The notes beneath the pieces were generated by a model. It was not told where the DNA came from, ran no database searches, and was given only the letters and a program-made list of their open reading frames with translations. A DNA stretch of 64,000 bases from Teredinibacter turnerae T7901. Its GTDB lineage: Bacteria > Pseudomonadota > Gammaproteobacteria > Pseudomonadales > Cellvibrionaceae. The DNA lies in assembly GCF_000023025.1 (NCBI RefSeq), contig NC_012997.1, positions 3,407,125 through 3,471,124 on the forward strand. The letters are read 5' to 3'. Shown piece by piece: positions 12,299-54,511 of the stretch (position 1 is the stretch's first letter; each line of letters starts with the position of its first letter). A program made the position numbers and the translations under genes.

Positions 12299-12304
12299 GA
12301 TAGA

Positions 12305-12655
<351 letters not shown>

Positions 12656-16081: not shown

Positions 16082-16333
16082 GGGGCCTGTTCACACTAAT
16101 TTATCGAACAGTGCGGCCCGCAAATATTTGCCACAGACACTTGCAGAACGTGTCTTGGCGGTAACGAAGCTTTGGTAGCTTCGGCTGCCGAGCAAAAAAT
16201 CAGACTGAAAATACCCTGCATTTTCGGGTCTATAGTTGGCTGGGGGATAACCTGAATTATCCGAACGGCGATCCGTTTTAGCCTGAGACTCCCAGTTCTG
16301 GCAGAGCGAATAGAACTAGTGTTAACAGACCGC
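16082..16333. mobile_element. Diverged relative of the 265-bp MITE-like element
   Basis: The left end GGGGCCTGTTCACACTAATT and right end AGAACTAGTGTTAACAGACC match the terminal inverted repeats of the copies at 21462 and 52815, with a few changes. The subterminal GCAGAGCGAAT next to the right end is also shared. The roughly 200-bp interior is largely different, so this is either an old copy or a sister subfamily. It fills the argC/CLC divergent intergenic region, ends 37 bp before the CLC start, and could carry promoter sequence. No gene is seen in it. Confidence 0.7.
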
Positions 16334-19539: not shown

Positions 19540-20178
19540 ATGCCCACACATTCTTTGCCGCGCATTTACGGTATAACCGATAGCGGCTTGCTACCCACAA
19601 CCCACCAACTTGTCACTGCCGTGGAAACTGCACTACTGGCCGGTGTCACTTGGATTCAATACCGCGCGAAACAGCTGGATCCAGACACCAAACTCAAGCA
19701 AGCCGAGCGCCTTATAGCGCTCTGCCAAACCTTGAACGGCGTACTTATTGTGAATGACGACGTACACCTGGCCCAGCGCATTGGGGCGCACGGGGTGCAC
19801 CTCGGCCAGAGTGATATGCCCGTTGTTCAGGCGCGCGCGATTCTCGGGCCTGAAGCATTGATCGGCGTTACCTGCCACAGCGACCTTGCCCTCGCCCGCA
19901 AGGCAGCAGATGAGGGCGCCAGTTATCTCGCGTTCGGCCGTTTTTTTCGCTCGAGCACTAAACCCGACGCACCAGTCGCGCCGCTATCAGTTTTAAAAAA
20001 GGCAAAAACGCAGTTTCAACTGCCTATCGTCGCGATTGGCGGCATTGATGCCGCAAATGCACTTGAAGTGTACCGAGCAGGAGCGGACAGCCTCGCTTGC
20101 TGCAACAGTCTTTTTGACGGCAATAATGTAAAATCCCGAGCCGAAATGCTATTTAGGAGCCTGTCCCATCATGAGTAA
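19540..20178 (+). CDS. thiE: Thiamine-phosphate synthase
   Basis: TIM-barrel enzyme that joins HMP-pyrophosphate and thiazole phosphate to give thiamine monophosphate. The protein is 212 aa. [28 protein letters not shown], the phosphate-loop [11 protein letters not shown] and the late [10 protein letters not shown] are the usual motifs, and catalytic-site residues look intact, unlike the upstream ThiD-like protein. Its end overlaps the hemL start by 8 nt. There is no TPP riboswitch-like sequence upstream of thiD or thiE. Confidence 0.93.
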
Positions 20179-21454
20179 TTTTTCCGAAGTCTTCGCCCGC
20201 GCCCAAAAAACCATCCCGGGCGGTGTCAACTCTCCTGTGCGGGCTTTCAAGGCAGTTGGCGGTGAACCCGTATTCATTGATCACGCAAAAGGCGCCTACG
20301 TATACGACATTCACGGCAAACGCTATGTCGACTATGTGTTGTCCTGGGGACCGATGTTATTGGGGCACGGCGACGACGACGTATTGGATGCAGTACGTGC
20401 AAAACTGGATAAAGGTTTGAGTTTTGGCGCTCCCACCGAAATTGAAACCGAACTGGCAGAAAAAATCTGCAATATTATGCCCGGCATGGACAAAGTGCGT
20501 TTTGTGAACTCGGGTACCGAGGCCACGATGAGCGCGATTCGCCTCGCGCGAGGCTACACCGGGCGCGACAAAATCGTGAAGTTCGAAGGCTGCTATCACG
20601 GCCACTCCGATTCCCTACTGATTAAAGCAGGCAGCGGCGCGCTCACGCTTGGCGTGCCCAGCTCACCCGGCGTTCCGGCTTGTCTTGCGGAACACACGAT
20701 CACGCTCACCTACAACAATATCGAACAGGTCAGGCAACTGTTTCGCGACCGCGGGAATGAGATCGCCTGCATTATTGTGGAGCCTGTCGCAGGCAACATG
20801 AACTGCATTCCGCCGGAGCCAGGATTCCTGCAAGCACTTCGCGAAGTCTGCACTCAAGCCGATGCGCTGCTGATTTTTGACGAAGTGATGACTGGCTTCC
20901 GCCTGGGACTAAGTGGTGCTCAGGGTTACTACCAGGTACAACCTGACATTACCACCCTGGGTAAAGTTATTGGTGGCGGCATGCCCGTTGGCGCATTCGG
21001 CGGCAGTGAACGTATTATGGATTTTATTGCTCCGGTTGGGCCGGTTTATCAAGCGGGAACCTTATCGGGCAACCCCGTCGCGATGGCAGCGGGATTAAAA
21101 ACCCTGGAAAAAATCAGCGCGGAGGGCTTCTACCAACCCATTTTTGATAAAACCGCAGCCCTGTGTCGCAACCTGGAATCAGCGGCCAAAGAAGCAGGAA
21201 TCGGATTTACCACCAACTACGTGGGCTCTATGTGGGGCGGTTTTTTCACGGAAGAGGAGAAGATCAGCAATTACCAGCAGGTAATGGCGTGCAATACGGA
21301 GAGATTTAACCGATTTTTCCACGGCATGCTGGACGAAGGTGTTTACCTGGCACCAGCATCCTATGAAGCCGGTTTTATGTCGGTTAGCCACAGCGACGAG
21401 GACATCGATTTCACTGTAAATGCCGCCCGCAAAGTCTTCGCAAATATCAAATAA
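20171..21454 (+). CDS. hemL: Glutamate-1-semialdehyde 2,1-aminomutase
   Basis: PLP enzyme that makes 5-aminolevulinate in the C5 tetrapyrrole pathway. The protein is 427 aa, the family length. The PLP lysine is K265 in [42 protein letters not shown] and [10 protein letters not shown] are diagnostic. It is the last gene of the clc-hemJ-thiD-like-thiE-hemL run. A MITE-like element starts 7 bp after its stop and may terminate or stabilise the transcript. Confidence 0.97.
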
Positions 21455-21461
21455 AGAACCT

Positions 21462-21726
21462 AGGGCCTGTTAACACTAATTCGATTCATTCTGTTGCGGC
21501 TAAAATTTCGCTGTCAAGGCGTTTGGAGCGTAGTTTGGTTGTTCCAAATGAGCGATAAACAACGCTGAGAGCGGGATTTTAGCCGCAACCCGCAGGGCTG
21601 GGCCTGTATTTCCAGGCTGATGCGTTATTTTTCGCTCGTTTAGCCCGCTAAACAACGCCAAAAATGCCTTTCATCCTGAAAATACAGGCTCCAGCAGAGC
21701 GAATTGAATTAGTGTTAACAGGCCCT
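21462..21726. mobile_element. 265-bp MITE-like element, copy 1
   Basis: The element runs from AGGGCCTGTTAACACTAATT to its inverse complement. Terminal inverted repeats are 26 bp with one mismatch, and the flanks extend the symmetry to CTAG...CTAG. Inside are two large arms: GTTGCGGCTAAAAT/ATTTTAGCCGCAAC (21493-21506 with 21576-21589) and GCCTGTATTTCCAGG/CCTGAAAATACAGGC (21602-21616 with 21675-21689). There is no coding frame of note. By eye it is identical to 52815-53079. Size, inverted ends and repetition fit a non-autonomous transposable element; a TA target duplication is plausible (TA on both sides here). The remainder up to 21850 has short CCAAGTAA direct repeats and no gene. Confidence 0.85.
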
Positions 21727-21850
21727 AGCCACAAGCGTGTAATCTACTCGCCCGCTCCGCGCTATTTCAGCCGGAGCGGCACTCCCAAGCAACCAAGTAA
21801 CCAAGTAACCAAGCAGACAAAAGCAAACTAAAAAAGAAATTAGGTAACAC

Positions 21851-51907: not shown

Positions 51908-52663
51908 ATGAAATTAACTACCTTAGCGAAAATAGGTGTGCTCGCATCCGCACCCATATGGCTGGTTGCCTGCGGCGGTGACGATGACAACAACGGCCCA
52001 ACAGCCCCGTCGCCTTCACCGTCACCCACGCCTGCACCCGATGTTACCGTGAGCTACCAGATCGAGGTGACCAACCTCACCCAGGCGCAGCCGCTAGCGC
52101 CCTACGCCGCCCTATTGCACGGGCAGAACTATCGCGGTTGGCACATTGGTGAGCCTGCGTCCGAAGGCCTGGAAATGCTGGCCGAAGCCGGAGCCCCTGC
52201 CGAATTTATTGGCGAAGCAACCTCCGCCATGAGCAGCACCGCAGGCGATGGCCCGGTAATGCCCGGCAATAGCGTTAGCTTCGAAATCAGCACCACCATG
52301 AGCAGCAGCGACTACGCCATGCACAACTGGCAATTAACCCTGGCCTCCATGGCGGGCAATACCAACGATGCATTCGCTGGCGTGACCGGGTTGAATATCG
52401 CCAGCCTGGCAATGGGCGAAACCATGGTGCAGTTGGTGCCGATTTACGATGCGGGTACCGAAGCCAATACCGAAACCGCGGAAACCGTTCCCGGGCCGGC
52501 TGGTGGTGGCGAAGGGTTTAATGAAATGCGAGACGACATTATGGACCAGGTCACCATGCACCCCGGTGTTGTCACCGCCGCAGACGGCTACGCCGATTCC
52601 ACCCTCAACCAGGCGCACCGCTTCGACCAGTACCCGATGCTGATTAAAATCACACGAATGTAA
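51908..52663 (+). CDS. Spondin-N domain lipoprotein
   Basis: A 251-aa paralogue of the upstream gene. Lipobox LVAC (C at about 22) followed by an Asp/Asn and then Pro/Ser-rich tether (DDDNNGPTAPSPSPSPTPAP), then the spondin-N domain with VTNLTQAQPLAPYAALLHG and a shared YDAGTEANTE. A Gly-rich spacer (GPAGGGEG) replaces the collagen-like insert. Expected to be anchored to the outer membrane. A strong terminator follows 20 bp after the stop. Confidence 0.85.
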   Translation: MKLTTLAKIGVLASAPIWLVACGGDDDNNGPTAPSPSPSPTPAPDVTVSYQIEVTNLTQAQPLAPYAALLHGQNYRGWHIGEPASEGLEMLAEAGAPAEFIGEATSAMSSTAGDGPVMPGNSVSFEISTTMSSSDYAMHNWQLTLASMAGNTNDAFAGVTGLNIASLAMGETMVQLVPIYDAGTEANTETAETVPGPAGGGEGFNEMRDDIMDQVTMHPGVVTAADGYADSTLNQAHRFDQYPMLIKITRM

Positions 52664-52682
52664 GCACGAGCACTATGCAATA

Positions 52683-52726
52683 AAAAACCCCGCTGGCTCC
52701 TTCACGCACGAACCAGCGGGGTTTTT
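52683..52726 (+). terminator. Intrinsic terminator of the spondin operon
   Basis: A 14-bp stem AAAAACCCCGCTGG/CCAGCGGGGTTTTT with a 16-nt loop, ending in a T-tract (TTTTTATTTTT). Good bidirectional shape. Confidence 0.9.
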
Positions 52727-52814
52727 ATTTTTGCGGCTTTATACCGTGTTGAGGTGAGCGCGCCAAACCCCAAACCGGATTAACGTGTATTTTTAAGATT
52801 GGCCTGCGTTAACG

Positions 52815-53079
52815 AGGGCCTGTTAACACTAATTCGATTCATTCTGTTGCGGCTAAAATTTCGCTGTCAAGGCGTTTGGAGCGTAGTTTGGTTGTTCCAA
52901 ATGAGCGATAAACAACGCTGAGAGCGGGATTTTAGCCGCAACCCGCAGGGCTGGGCCTGTATTTCCAGGCTGATGCGTTATTTTTCGCTCGTTTAGCCCG
53001 CTAAACAACGCCAAAAATGCCTTTCATCCTGAAAATACAGGCTCCAGCAGAGCGAATTGAATTAGTGTTAACAGGCCCT
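52815..53079. mobile_element. 265-bp MITE-like element, copy 2
   Basis: Same 265 bp as 21462-21726, apparently base for base, including ends, both internal arms and the GTTTAGC/GCTAAAC mini-hairpin. Identity implies recent movement or strong conservation. The flanks differ: AACG before and AGGAAC after, with GA rather than TA on the left. Its last bases (CT at 53078-53079) with the following A form TAG, the stop codon of the adjacent minus-strand gene. Confidence 0.85.
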
Positions 53080-54511
53080 AGGAACCAAAAACATCGAGCA
53101 CTTTGCCGTCGAACACGGCACTAGTCTGGATACCCGCCGCGCATAACAACGTTGGCGCAATATCGATGATTTCCGCTCCCTGCAAGCTAGCGCCGCGTTT
53201 TATTCCAGGCCCGTGTAAAATAAACACCGCATCTTCCGCATGCATTGCTGACCTGCGCCGGTCGTTGCGCCTGGCAAGCTCGCTAAAACCTATCTGTTTA
53301 TCCGCCATGGCAATATGTAAATTTTCCAAATTCGCCTGACGATAAAATGCCACATCGGTAGCCAGATTAAATTTCACAATAATTTCATGTTGCTGATTAA
53401 AGACCTGAAATAGAGGCTCGCCGGTTTCAACCACCACCAACGACTGGAGTTTTTCTACCTCCGCAGAAGCAATTAGTGCCCCATCGTCCCGCCGGTAAGC
53501 AACCCAGCGTGCTATCGGATGCGCATGAATATGTTCGTCCAGACCAGCAAACTGCTTCAAACGCGCAGCGTTAATGACGTAATGCCAATCGCCATGTTCG
53601 GTAGAATCCGGTTCGGCCGCCATGCCATGCTCCGACACAAAAGCGACGACGGTATTGCTATCCATACGTTGCAAAATGCGGCCAAGCATATTATCCACCG
53701 CGATATATGCGTTGATTACCGCATTGCGAATAGCTGGTGCTGCAGGTGCTTCACCAAATTTTTCCGGCTCGTGATAGCGCCAATACCGATGCGAAATATA
53801 GTCCACCAAAAAAGTGACAAACGCCGATGCATCAGGTTGGTAGCGGCGGCATAAATCCAAAAACAAACCACAGGCAAGTTGCTGCTTGGCATGGCGCAAC
53901 TCCAGGGTGCGCTCCTCTGCAGAGGCCGAAAATGCAACCCGCGCAGCCGAACGCAACAGGCTTCCCGCCATGGGGTACAACACATTGTAACGCGCAAGCA
54001 CCTGTGCCATACGCAGGCTTTCCAGCAGTCGCAACCGAGCATCGCCTTCGCGGTCCAACACGGCCTTGGCAGACTGTCGATCCAGGTTGCGAATATCCTC
54101 CAACTCCGGCGGCCAGGTACGGCGGTCGCGCGCGTGATAACAGGGGATATCAAACCCGTTGATTTCTTTAGGTGGCCAGGTCATAGGCCAACTGTAGGTT
54201 CCCACATTGCGCCCGGTATCCGAAATTAATTGCCAAATGGAAGGAACCTGCATTTCTGCAGCGGTATGAAAATACCGTAAAATGCCGTGGCTTTCCGGGC
54301 GGCGACCAGTCGACAGACAAGGCCATGCGGTTTGCGGCCGAAAATGCTTGTCGCCCTCTGGCCGCACAGACGCAAGCACGCCCGATACACCGCCATCAAT
54401 CAACTTGCGAATATTGGGTAAACGCCCCGCATTTGCCAGAGGCGTAATAACATCCCAGGTTGCTCCCGAAACCCCAAAAACAAATACACGTGGTTGCACA
54501 GATAGTTTCAT
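53078..54511 (-). CDS. Type I phosphodiesterase/alkaline-phosphatase superfamily protein (altered metal site)
   Basis: A 477-aa protein with the fold and order of the superfamily: GATWDVITPLANAGRLPNIR, QTAWPCLSTGRRPESHGI (nucleophile Thr), VDYISHRYW, and a late GPGIKRGA... DIAPTLL. Two metal positions are changed: the first Asp of G-L-D-G-A is S15 (GVSGA) and S-D-H-G is SEHG. It may be inactive or have another chemistry. No signal peptide. The stop TAG overlaps the MITE end, so the original C-terminus may have been altered. The start overlaps the sulfotransferase stop by ATGA. Confidence 0.8.
   Translation of the reverse strand: MKLSVQPRVFVFGVSGATWDVITPLANAGRLPNIRKLIDGGVSGVLASVRPEGDKHFRPQTAWPCLSTGRRPESHGILRYFHTAAEMQVPSIWQLISDTGRNVGTYSWPMTWPPKEINGFDIPCYHARDRRTWPPELEDIRNLDRQSAKAVLDREGDARLRLLESLRMAQVLARYNVLYPMAGSLLRSAARVAFSASAEERTLELRHAKQQLACGLFLDLCRRYQPDASAFVTFLVDYISHRYWRYHEPEKFGEAPAAPAIRNAVINAYIAVDNMLGRILQRMDSNTVVAFVSEHGMAAEPDSTEHGDWHYVINAARLKQFAGLDEHIHAHPIARWVAYRRDDGALIASAEVEKLQSLVVVETGEPLFQVFNQQHEIIVKFNLATDVAFYRQANLENLHIAMADKQIGFSELARRNDRRRSAMHAEDAVFILHGPGIKRGASLQGAEIIDIAPTLLCAAGIQTSAVFDGKVLDVFGS

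Follow-up and report, generated by a model that had tools for sequence, protein, structure and literature searches.

A putative IS5-type MITE of Teredinibacter turnerae T7901 with a two-armed interior of conserved predicted fold

Two identical copies of a non-coding element

The window analysed here is a stretch of 64,000 nucleotides from the genome of T. turnerae T7901, which we searched as one contig of 5,193,164 bp (G000). It carries two copies of a repeat that direct comparison found identical over the full 265 bp, as a preliminary description of the window had claimed (Table 1). That description had also noted inverted ends, no coding capacity and TA on both sides of copy 1, and we recovered all three: the terminal inverted repeats form 37-nt arms that are 89% complementary, no coding capacity is apparent in the unit, and copy 1 is flanked by CTA/TAG (the slash standing for the element). 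Copy 2 lies between CGA/TAG, with TA on the right only. The extent of the unit needed revision: the repeat does span 265 bp, but 263 bp with duplication of TA describes the mobile unit better, the 265 bp being this unit plus one flanking base per side.

Table 1. Coordinates of the two-armed elements and associated features. Positions are those of the window except for L235 and L236, which are parts of IMG/VR contig 3300022695_000189. Both arms of copy 1 were among the 30 arms from which the one-arm covariance model R1 was built.
Feature	Position	Strand	Remark
Diverged end pair (1 and 3 mismatches) around another interior of about 250 bp	16083..16332		End-pattern scan
TA, left half of copy 1 target duplication (target CTAG)	21461..21462		Single CTAG in congener G004
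Two-armed MITE, copy 1	21463..21725	+	263-bp unit
Copy 1, arm A	21493..21589	+	R1, 89.9 bits
Copy 1, arm B	21597..21695	-	R1, 80.7 bits; 7 nt beyond arm A, on the other strand
TA, right half of copy 1 target duplication	21726..21727		Comparison with G004 site
Two-armed MITE, copy 2	52816..53078	+	Sequence identical to copy 1
Copy 2, arm A	52846..52942	+	R1
Copy 2, arm B	52950..53048	-	R1
TA at right end of copy 2	53079..53080		Left end has GA instead
Two-armed element L235	3119-3402		Ends GGCTCATATCTTATGCC
Two-armed element L236	5233-5499		Ends GGCTCATATCTTATGCC

Copy 1 starts 8 nt past the stop codon of a 427-aa ORF (20171-21454), and copy 2 overlaps, at its right end, the TAG stop of a minus-strand ORF (53078-54511). 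The window has six occurrences of the end pattern with up to three mismatches, far above chance, as shuffled sequences predict 0.01. One further pair of occurrences, with ends of the GGGCCTGTT type, encloses a different interior in which the arm model detected no arms at E values up to 10; this diverged pair is perhaps an old relative. Elsewhere in the window, positions 12303-12654 of the minus strand match bacterial RNase P RNA class A (331.6 bits), the sole Rfam match in the window at the gathering score.

Copy number, target sites and comparison with congeners

Where the preliminary description knew two copies only, the genome holds 22 full-length two-armed copies: 11 of 265 bp, one of 276 bp, four of 280 bp and six of 345 bp, one flanking base per side counted. 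The longer length classes have added blocks within one arm. Extra hairpin-like blocks lie near the same arm bulge in several lineages (L062, L068, L073 and the 280- and 345-types of G000).

Flanks of the form YTA/TAR surround 20 of 23 copies in G000 (the 22 two-armed copies and the insertion sequence described below), as well as all 41 elements in the stretches fetched from the congener G004; a clean YTA/TAR is absent in the other three copies of G000 and in 19 of 45 elements of relatives. Among the G004 elements, mixed cases with CTA/TAA or TTA/TAG flanks indicate that only TA is duplicated. In a crude test using 950-bp flanks, 19 of the 22 two-armed copies interrupt no ORF of at least 100 aa at the joined site; copy 2 (whose flank is doubtful), 2467680 and 1246446 possibly do.

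At the place of copy 1, G004 has an empty site with a single uninterrupted CTAG. The junctions read AACCTA/GGGCCTG...CAGGCCC/TAGCCACAAG in G000 and AGCCTAGCCACAAG in G004, so that insertion of the 263-bp unit at CTAG, duplicating TA, is the simplest account. Copy 2 sits where likeness to G004 ends: its left flank is 96% identical up to 52764, and its right-hand flank finds no match in that genome (window region 52650-53080). The likeness stopping at the element suggests a rearrangement beside copy 2. Matches to the ends with at most two mismatches (forward/reverse) number 57/54 in G004, 27/27 in G000, 16/13 in G007, 9/8 in G005 and 2/2 in G006, and there are none in three further congeners.

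Partner insertion sequences and classification

The preliminary description had proposed a search for a transposase gene between the same ends. Such an element is present in G000 as an IS5-family insertion sequence of 792 bp that has the 20-bp ends of the MITE, but its own transposase frame is broken by three TGA codons. Searched apart, the two transposase pieces match DUF4096 and DDE_Tnp_1, and the element matches the model NF033580 IS5_3, of which it is the sole G000 match above the cut-off; a second, weak match scores 25 bits. An open-framed relative of 800 bp occurs in G007, where the same ends (20/20 and 19/20) enclose two overlapping open frames that match IS5_3 at 115.9, above the cut-off of 110, and at 93.5, below it. 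The DUF4096/DDE domains, the two overlapping frames and the TA-type target place these partners in the IS5 family, presumably in its IS427 subgroup. No DNA match to the 792-bp element was found among the candidates scored in G004 (9 of 61).

Unlike the MITE, the IS5_3 elements have transposase frames, and beyond the ends the one in G000 bears no likeness to it. The 265-bp query found no match inside the 792-bp element, and a simple internal deletion of the latter was rejected because only the ends agree in alignment; the MITE may derive from another parent insertion sequence. The kind of mobilising enzyme predicted from the shared ends is clear, namely an IS5-type transposase, and its proposed action in trans is well supported by the anatomy of the element.

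The element is short, lacks a transposase gene, has terminal inverted repeats, occurs in many dispersed copies with target duplication, and shares its ends with an element of autonomous type whose transposase is broken in G000 and whose frames are open in G007. By these defining features it is a MITE, and its copies, its ends common to an IS5-family insertion sequence and the empty congener site make it an IS5-type one. The earlier MITE-like reading therefore holds, on the strength of the common 20-bp ends, the TA duplication at YTAR and the empty site; the window copies are neither alone nor lacking inverted-end relatives, there being 22 copies plus the insertion sequence. No Rfam family matches the element (window at the gathering score; five element loci at E ≤ 1), and a known Rfam RNA gene was rejected for want of any covariance-model match.

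Several known elements are comparable. TIMEs are reportedly small non-autonomous elements derived from Tn3 and found in Pseudomonas; they make 5-bp duplications, whereas the T. turnerae MITE duplicates TA. The Correia repeats, which are cut by RNase III, and the ERIC repeats differ from it in ends and size, and we know of no two-armed design in either. They are likewise palindromic MITEs, and their transcripts can be cut by RNases (PMC10969869). MITEPsy1 of Pseudomonas syringae is also short and without an ORF, with ends like those of the IS5-family ISPsy2 and a target of CTAG or YTAA, and was trapped as a mobile element by its authors (PMC3189936), and QMITE1 and QMITE2 of Coxiella burnetii are MITEs with strong predicted folds, some of which give small RNAs (PMC5896051). 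MITEPsy1, however, has 100 nt, other ends and a 4-nt duplication, in contrast to the 263 bp, TA and two-armed interior of the T. turnerae element (PMC3189936). The Coxiella report gives QMITE1 300-400 bp, with no orthologues found by its authors, and QMITE2 duplications of 7-11 nt and a REP (PMC5896051). The T7901 genome paper mentions transposable elements and, in the part available, does not describe this repeat (PMC2699552). Our literature search, which covered few subscription journals, returned no description of the element or of its end sequences. The two-armed interior, present in several kinds of ends, is without counterpart in Rfam or the literature searched, and an earlier name for the element may exist.

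Probable exchange among copies

The mean difference between copies in the 263 class is 1.26% within G000 (n=11), 1.32% within G004 (n=13) and 1.31% between them; in the 343 class it is 0.93% (n=6), 1.45% (n=20) and 1.41%, respectively. The consensus sequences of the two genomes differ at 1 of 265 positions, and at 3 of 345 in the longer class, while the flanking DNA at these and further sites has 82-98% identity. At one site (4837089 in G000, L099 in G004), an element stands at the same base in both genomes, of the 345-type in one and of the 265-type in the other. A second shared site (2381924/L126) holds 276- and 345-types, which a deletion could explain; not counted as shared were 2398128/L125, whose positions differ by about 10 bases, and 2332600/L128, matched in the left flank alone. 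From these differences, the diverged flanks and the variant swap, gene conversion among copies within a genome seems to act on top of transposition, with one clear site. A reading of the identical copies as recent transposition only is weakened by the different variants at one site in the two genomes.

Three of the 41 elements of G004 (L100, L110, L114) are 53-bp units made of the ends only, one and the same product in both orientations. Their presence at three sites means that the arms may be dispensable for movement. A TTG repeat lies at the junction of these units, so they could have arisen as separate deletions in place, in which case they say nothing about movement.

Predicted fold and covariation

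The preliminary description did not include the paired-hairpin interior, whose strongly conserved predicted fold is the most notable feature of the element. As single-stranded DNA, the 263-bp unit is predicted to fold into an outer stem and two long arms at -78.5 kcal/mol, where shuffled versions average -35.4 (z -12.4). The interior consists of two hairpin arms of about 99 nt in inverted order, 7 nt apart, which alignment shows to be homologous once one is reversed. Other genera of the family have elements of 262-266 bp with similar ends and layout and with different stem sequences.

We compared these in three alignments. A1 (n=22, nine genomes, eight genera) holds the window copy and 21 of 22 elements of 262-266 bp, leaving out L059, which is nearly the window's own sequence, and shorter or longer elements; A2 holds 30 arms drawn from 15 A1 elements; A3 holds 96 arm matches from 49 of 79 loci, chosen mostly for having two arms and fitted to the model. 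In A1, 93.9% of the cells of the named structure are paired, and 63 of the 96 predicted pairs are somewhere kept with both sides changed. Such double-change cells number 399, against 126±9 after shuffling and 46-81 after sliding. Like the arms, the terminal repeats covary, their sequences differing while pairing is kept. The model-fitted A3 gives 785 double-change cells against 237±12; the number of pairs with double changes was equalled in 35 of 500 shuffles, the other measures in none. Such compensatory change in the stems would be left unexplained if the conserved cores were an inverted pair of sites at which a host protein binds the DNA duplex; the conservation of core bases in both arms fits that reading, which we nevertheless consider very improbable.

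The core itself is partly non-Watson-Crick. In the fitted alignment, GC stands opposite AA in 86 of 96 arms, and tandem G.A occurs at one place in 43 of 96 arms (11.3 expected from column frequencies), the other arms often having Watson-Crick letters there, and at a second place in 62 of 96 (44 expected). The arms could act as RNA, as hairpins in read-through transcripts that end or stabilise host mRNA, or expose it to cutting, and so soften the effect of insertion. Tandem G.A in the core agrees with this, as does the position of both window copies at or just past stop codons. In fitted stem columns G.T (G.U in RNA) also exceeds A.C by 77 to 11, mostly in columns 17-21, where one strand keeps G. 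The lack of an Rfam match for the window at the gathering score, or for five element loci at E ≤ 1, speaks against it, and so do the unfitted counts, in which G.T and A.C are about equal in the outer repeats (18/18) and the arm B stem (13/14), though not in the arm A stem (31/10). We regard action as RNA as quite possible, if short of likely.

Arms acting as DNA, as lagging-strand or extruded hairpins that help a transposase or a host protein act on the element, would instead suit that part of the unfitted data in which the mismatches are symmetric. The pairing kept in the terminal repeats points the same way, and DNA folding of four single arms gives z of -4.9 to -8.1. The 53-bp end-only units at the three G004 sites argue against such a role, subject to the palindrome-guided separate deletions that their TTG junction allows, and we hold it to be rather unlikely. 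A crude end-to-end count, bulge included, gives 113 G.T to 134 A.C. Since the counts disagree between alignments, the mismatches do not settle between RNA and DNA.

Occurrence in other bacteria and in different terminal repeats

Searches with R1 found matches in at least 77 of 293 genomes and 43 of 119 genera of the order (E ≤ 1e-4), at least 83 of 369 genomes and 70 of 272 genera of the class (E ≤ 1e-6), and at least 105 of 398 genomes and 48 of 213 genera of the phylum. These samples overlap; of the 105 phylum genomes, 66 belong to other classes, a single family accounting for 53 of these. Since only part of the first-look candidates was scored (10-14 per genome), all these counts are minima, and the lack of a match is no proof of absence. 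Carriers include plasmids of Azotobacter chroococcum, Pseudomonas aeruginosa PA83 and Halomonas sp. PA16-9, and Agaribacterium haliotis, the last also being the one record returned by a scan of genome contigs with a core pattern one base too long. Across many bacteria of the phylum, the predicted hairpin shape is preserved more than the sequence. Searched against the plasmid and phage collections, the window's own element sequence gave no hit at E ≤ 1e-5; diverged relatives are present on plasmids. A copy closely like the window's element is carried by L237 (IMG/VR 2519899664_000001), a contig classed as viral.

Among the best-scoring matches, which are not a random draw, we picked 53 two-armed elements as inverted arm pairs lying close together, dropping longer, partial and single arms. 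The arms are 7 nt apart in 51 of the 53, in part owing to the selection of close pairs, and both ends were recognised in 40 elements, of which 37 are 263-267 bp long. Ends are of the GGGYCW type in 43 elements and of other types in ten. Judged by eye, four of these ten (L272, L277, L278, L284) still resemble the main type in a G-rich start or in GCCTGT, and six, of five kinds (L235 with L236, L248, L251, L259, L260), have ends that look unrelated; the outer stem of L260 is weak. About four of the ten (L248, L251, L277, L284) have a clear TA on both sides. The contig of L235 and L236 also carries terminase, portal, head and baseplate genes, and we found no other contig with GGCTCATATCTTATGCC ends.

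These data bear on whether the arms are passive palindromes of an ordinary MITE, kept complementary by template-switch correction and gene conversion and spread by lateral transfer. Quasi-palindromes are corrected by template switching, and the variant exchange at 4837089/L099, the near-identity of the G000 and G004 consensus sequences despite diverged flanks, and terminal repeats that covary as well as the arms all agree with such an origin. Correction should mend the core too, yet its mismatches are conserved in the fitted alignment; the near-constant unit length and the retention of the module within different terminal repeats also count against it. We judge passive palindromes improbable.

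Interpretation

We think it likely that the element is a non-autonomous IS5-type MITE with a conserved folded two-arm module, its stem pairing kept by compensatory change, which has been re-housed in different ends. A transposase acting in trans would recognise the ends of about 20 bp, with insertion at YTAR, often CTAG, and duplication of TA, as seen in the flanks and one empty site. The two homologous arms, inverted round the 7-nt centre, constitute the conserved folded module, and our comparisons show the long stem of each arm held in pairing by compensatory change, with a conserved core that is partly non-Watson-Crick. The module may work as a folded single strand, either as a transcript or as single-stranded DNA exposed at the replication fork. 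With the arms doubled in inverted order, either strand would present one of them in its own sense. The likeliest beneficiary would be the element itself, surviving at insertion sites near gene ends. The module is seen inside different terminal repeats, a pattern from which we infer the route of re-housing. That the two-armed interior has been kept so long suggests that a folded strand is selected for.

Bacterial MITEs are usually regarded as transient derivatives of a single insertion sequence, formed by deletion, and a shape-conserved interior is, to our knowledge, unusual among them. Here, over eight genera, the size, layout and fold of the interior persist with compensatory change; its structure model matches about a quarter of the genomes sampled from the phylum, and several kinds of terminal repeat enclose it. 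Long-term selection for structure on non-coding mobile DNA, and the reader of that structure, thereby become testable. More tentatively, and with some doubt, the module could be a distinct, ancient and selectable mobile structured nucleic acid that persists by swapping transposon ends, also on a phage contig; a host factor of wide distribution would read its folded strand, and the MITE would be no more than its present vehicle.

A separate observation concerns the phage genes beside L235 and L236, where the right end of the element seems to give the GGAGG and the ATG of the next gene.
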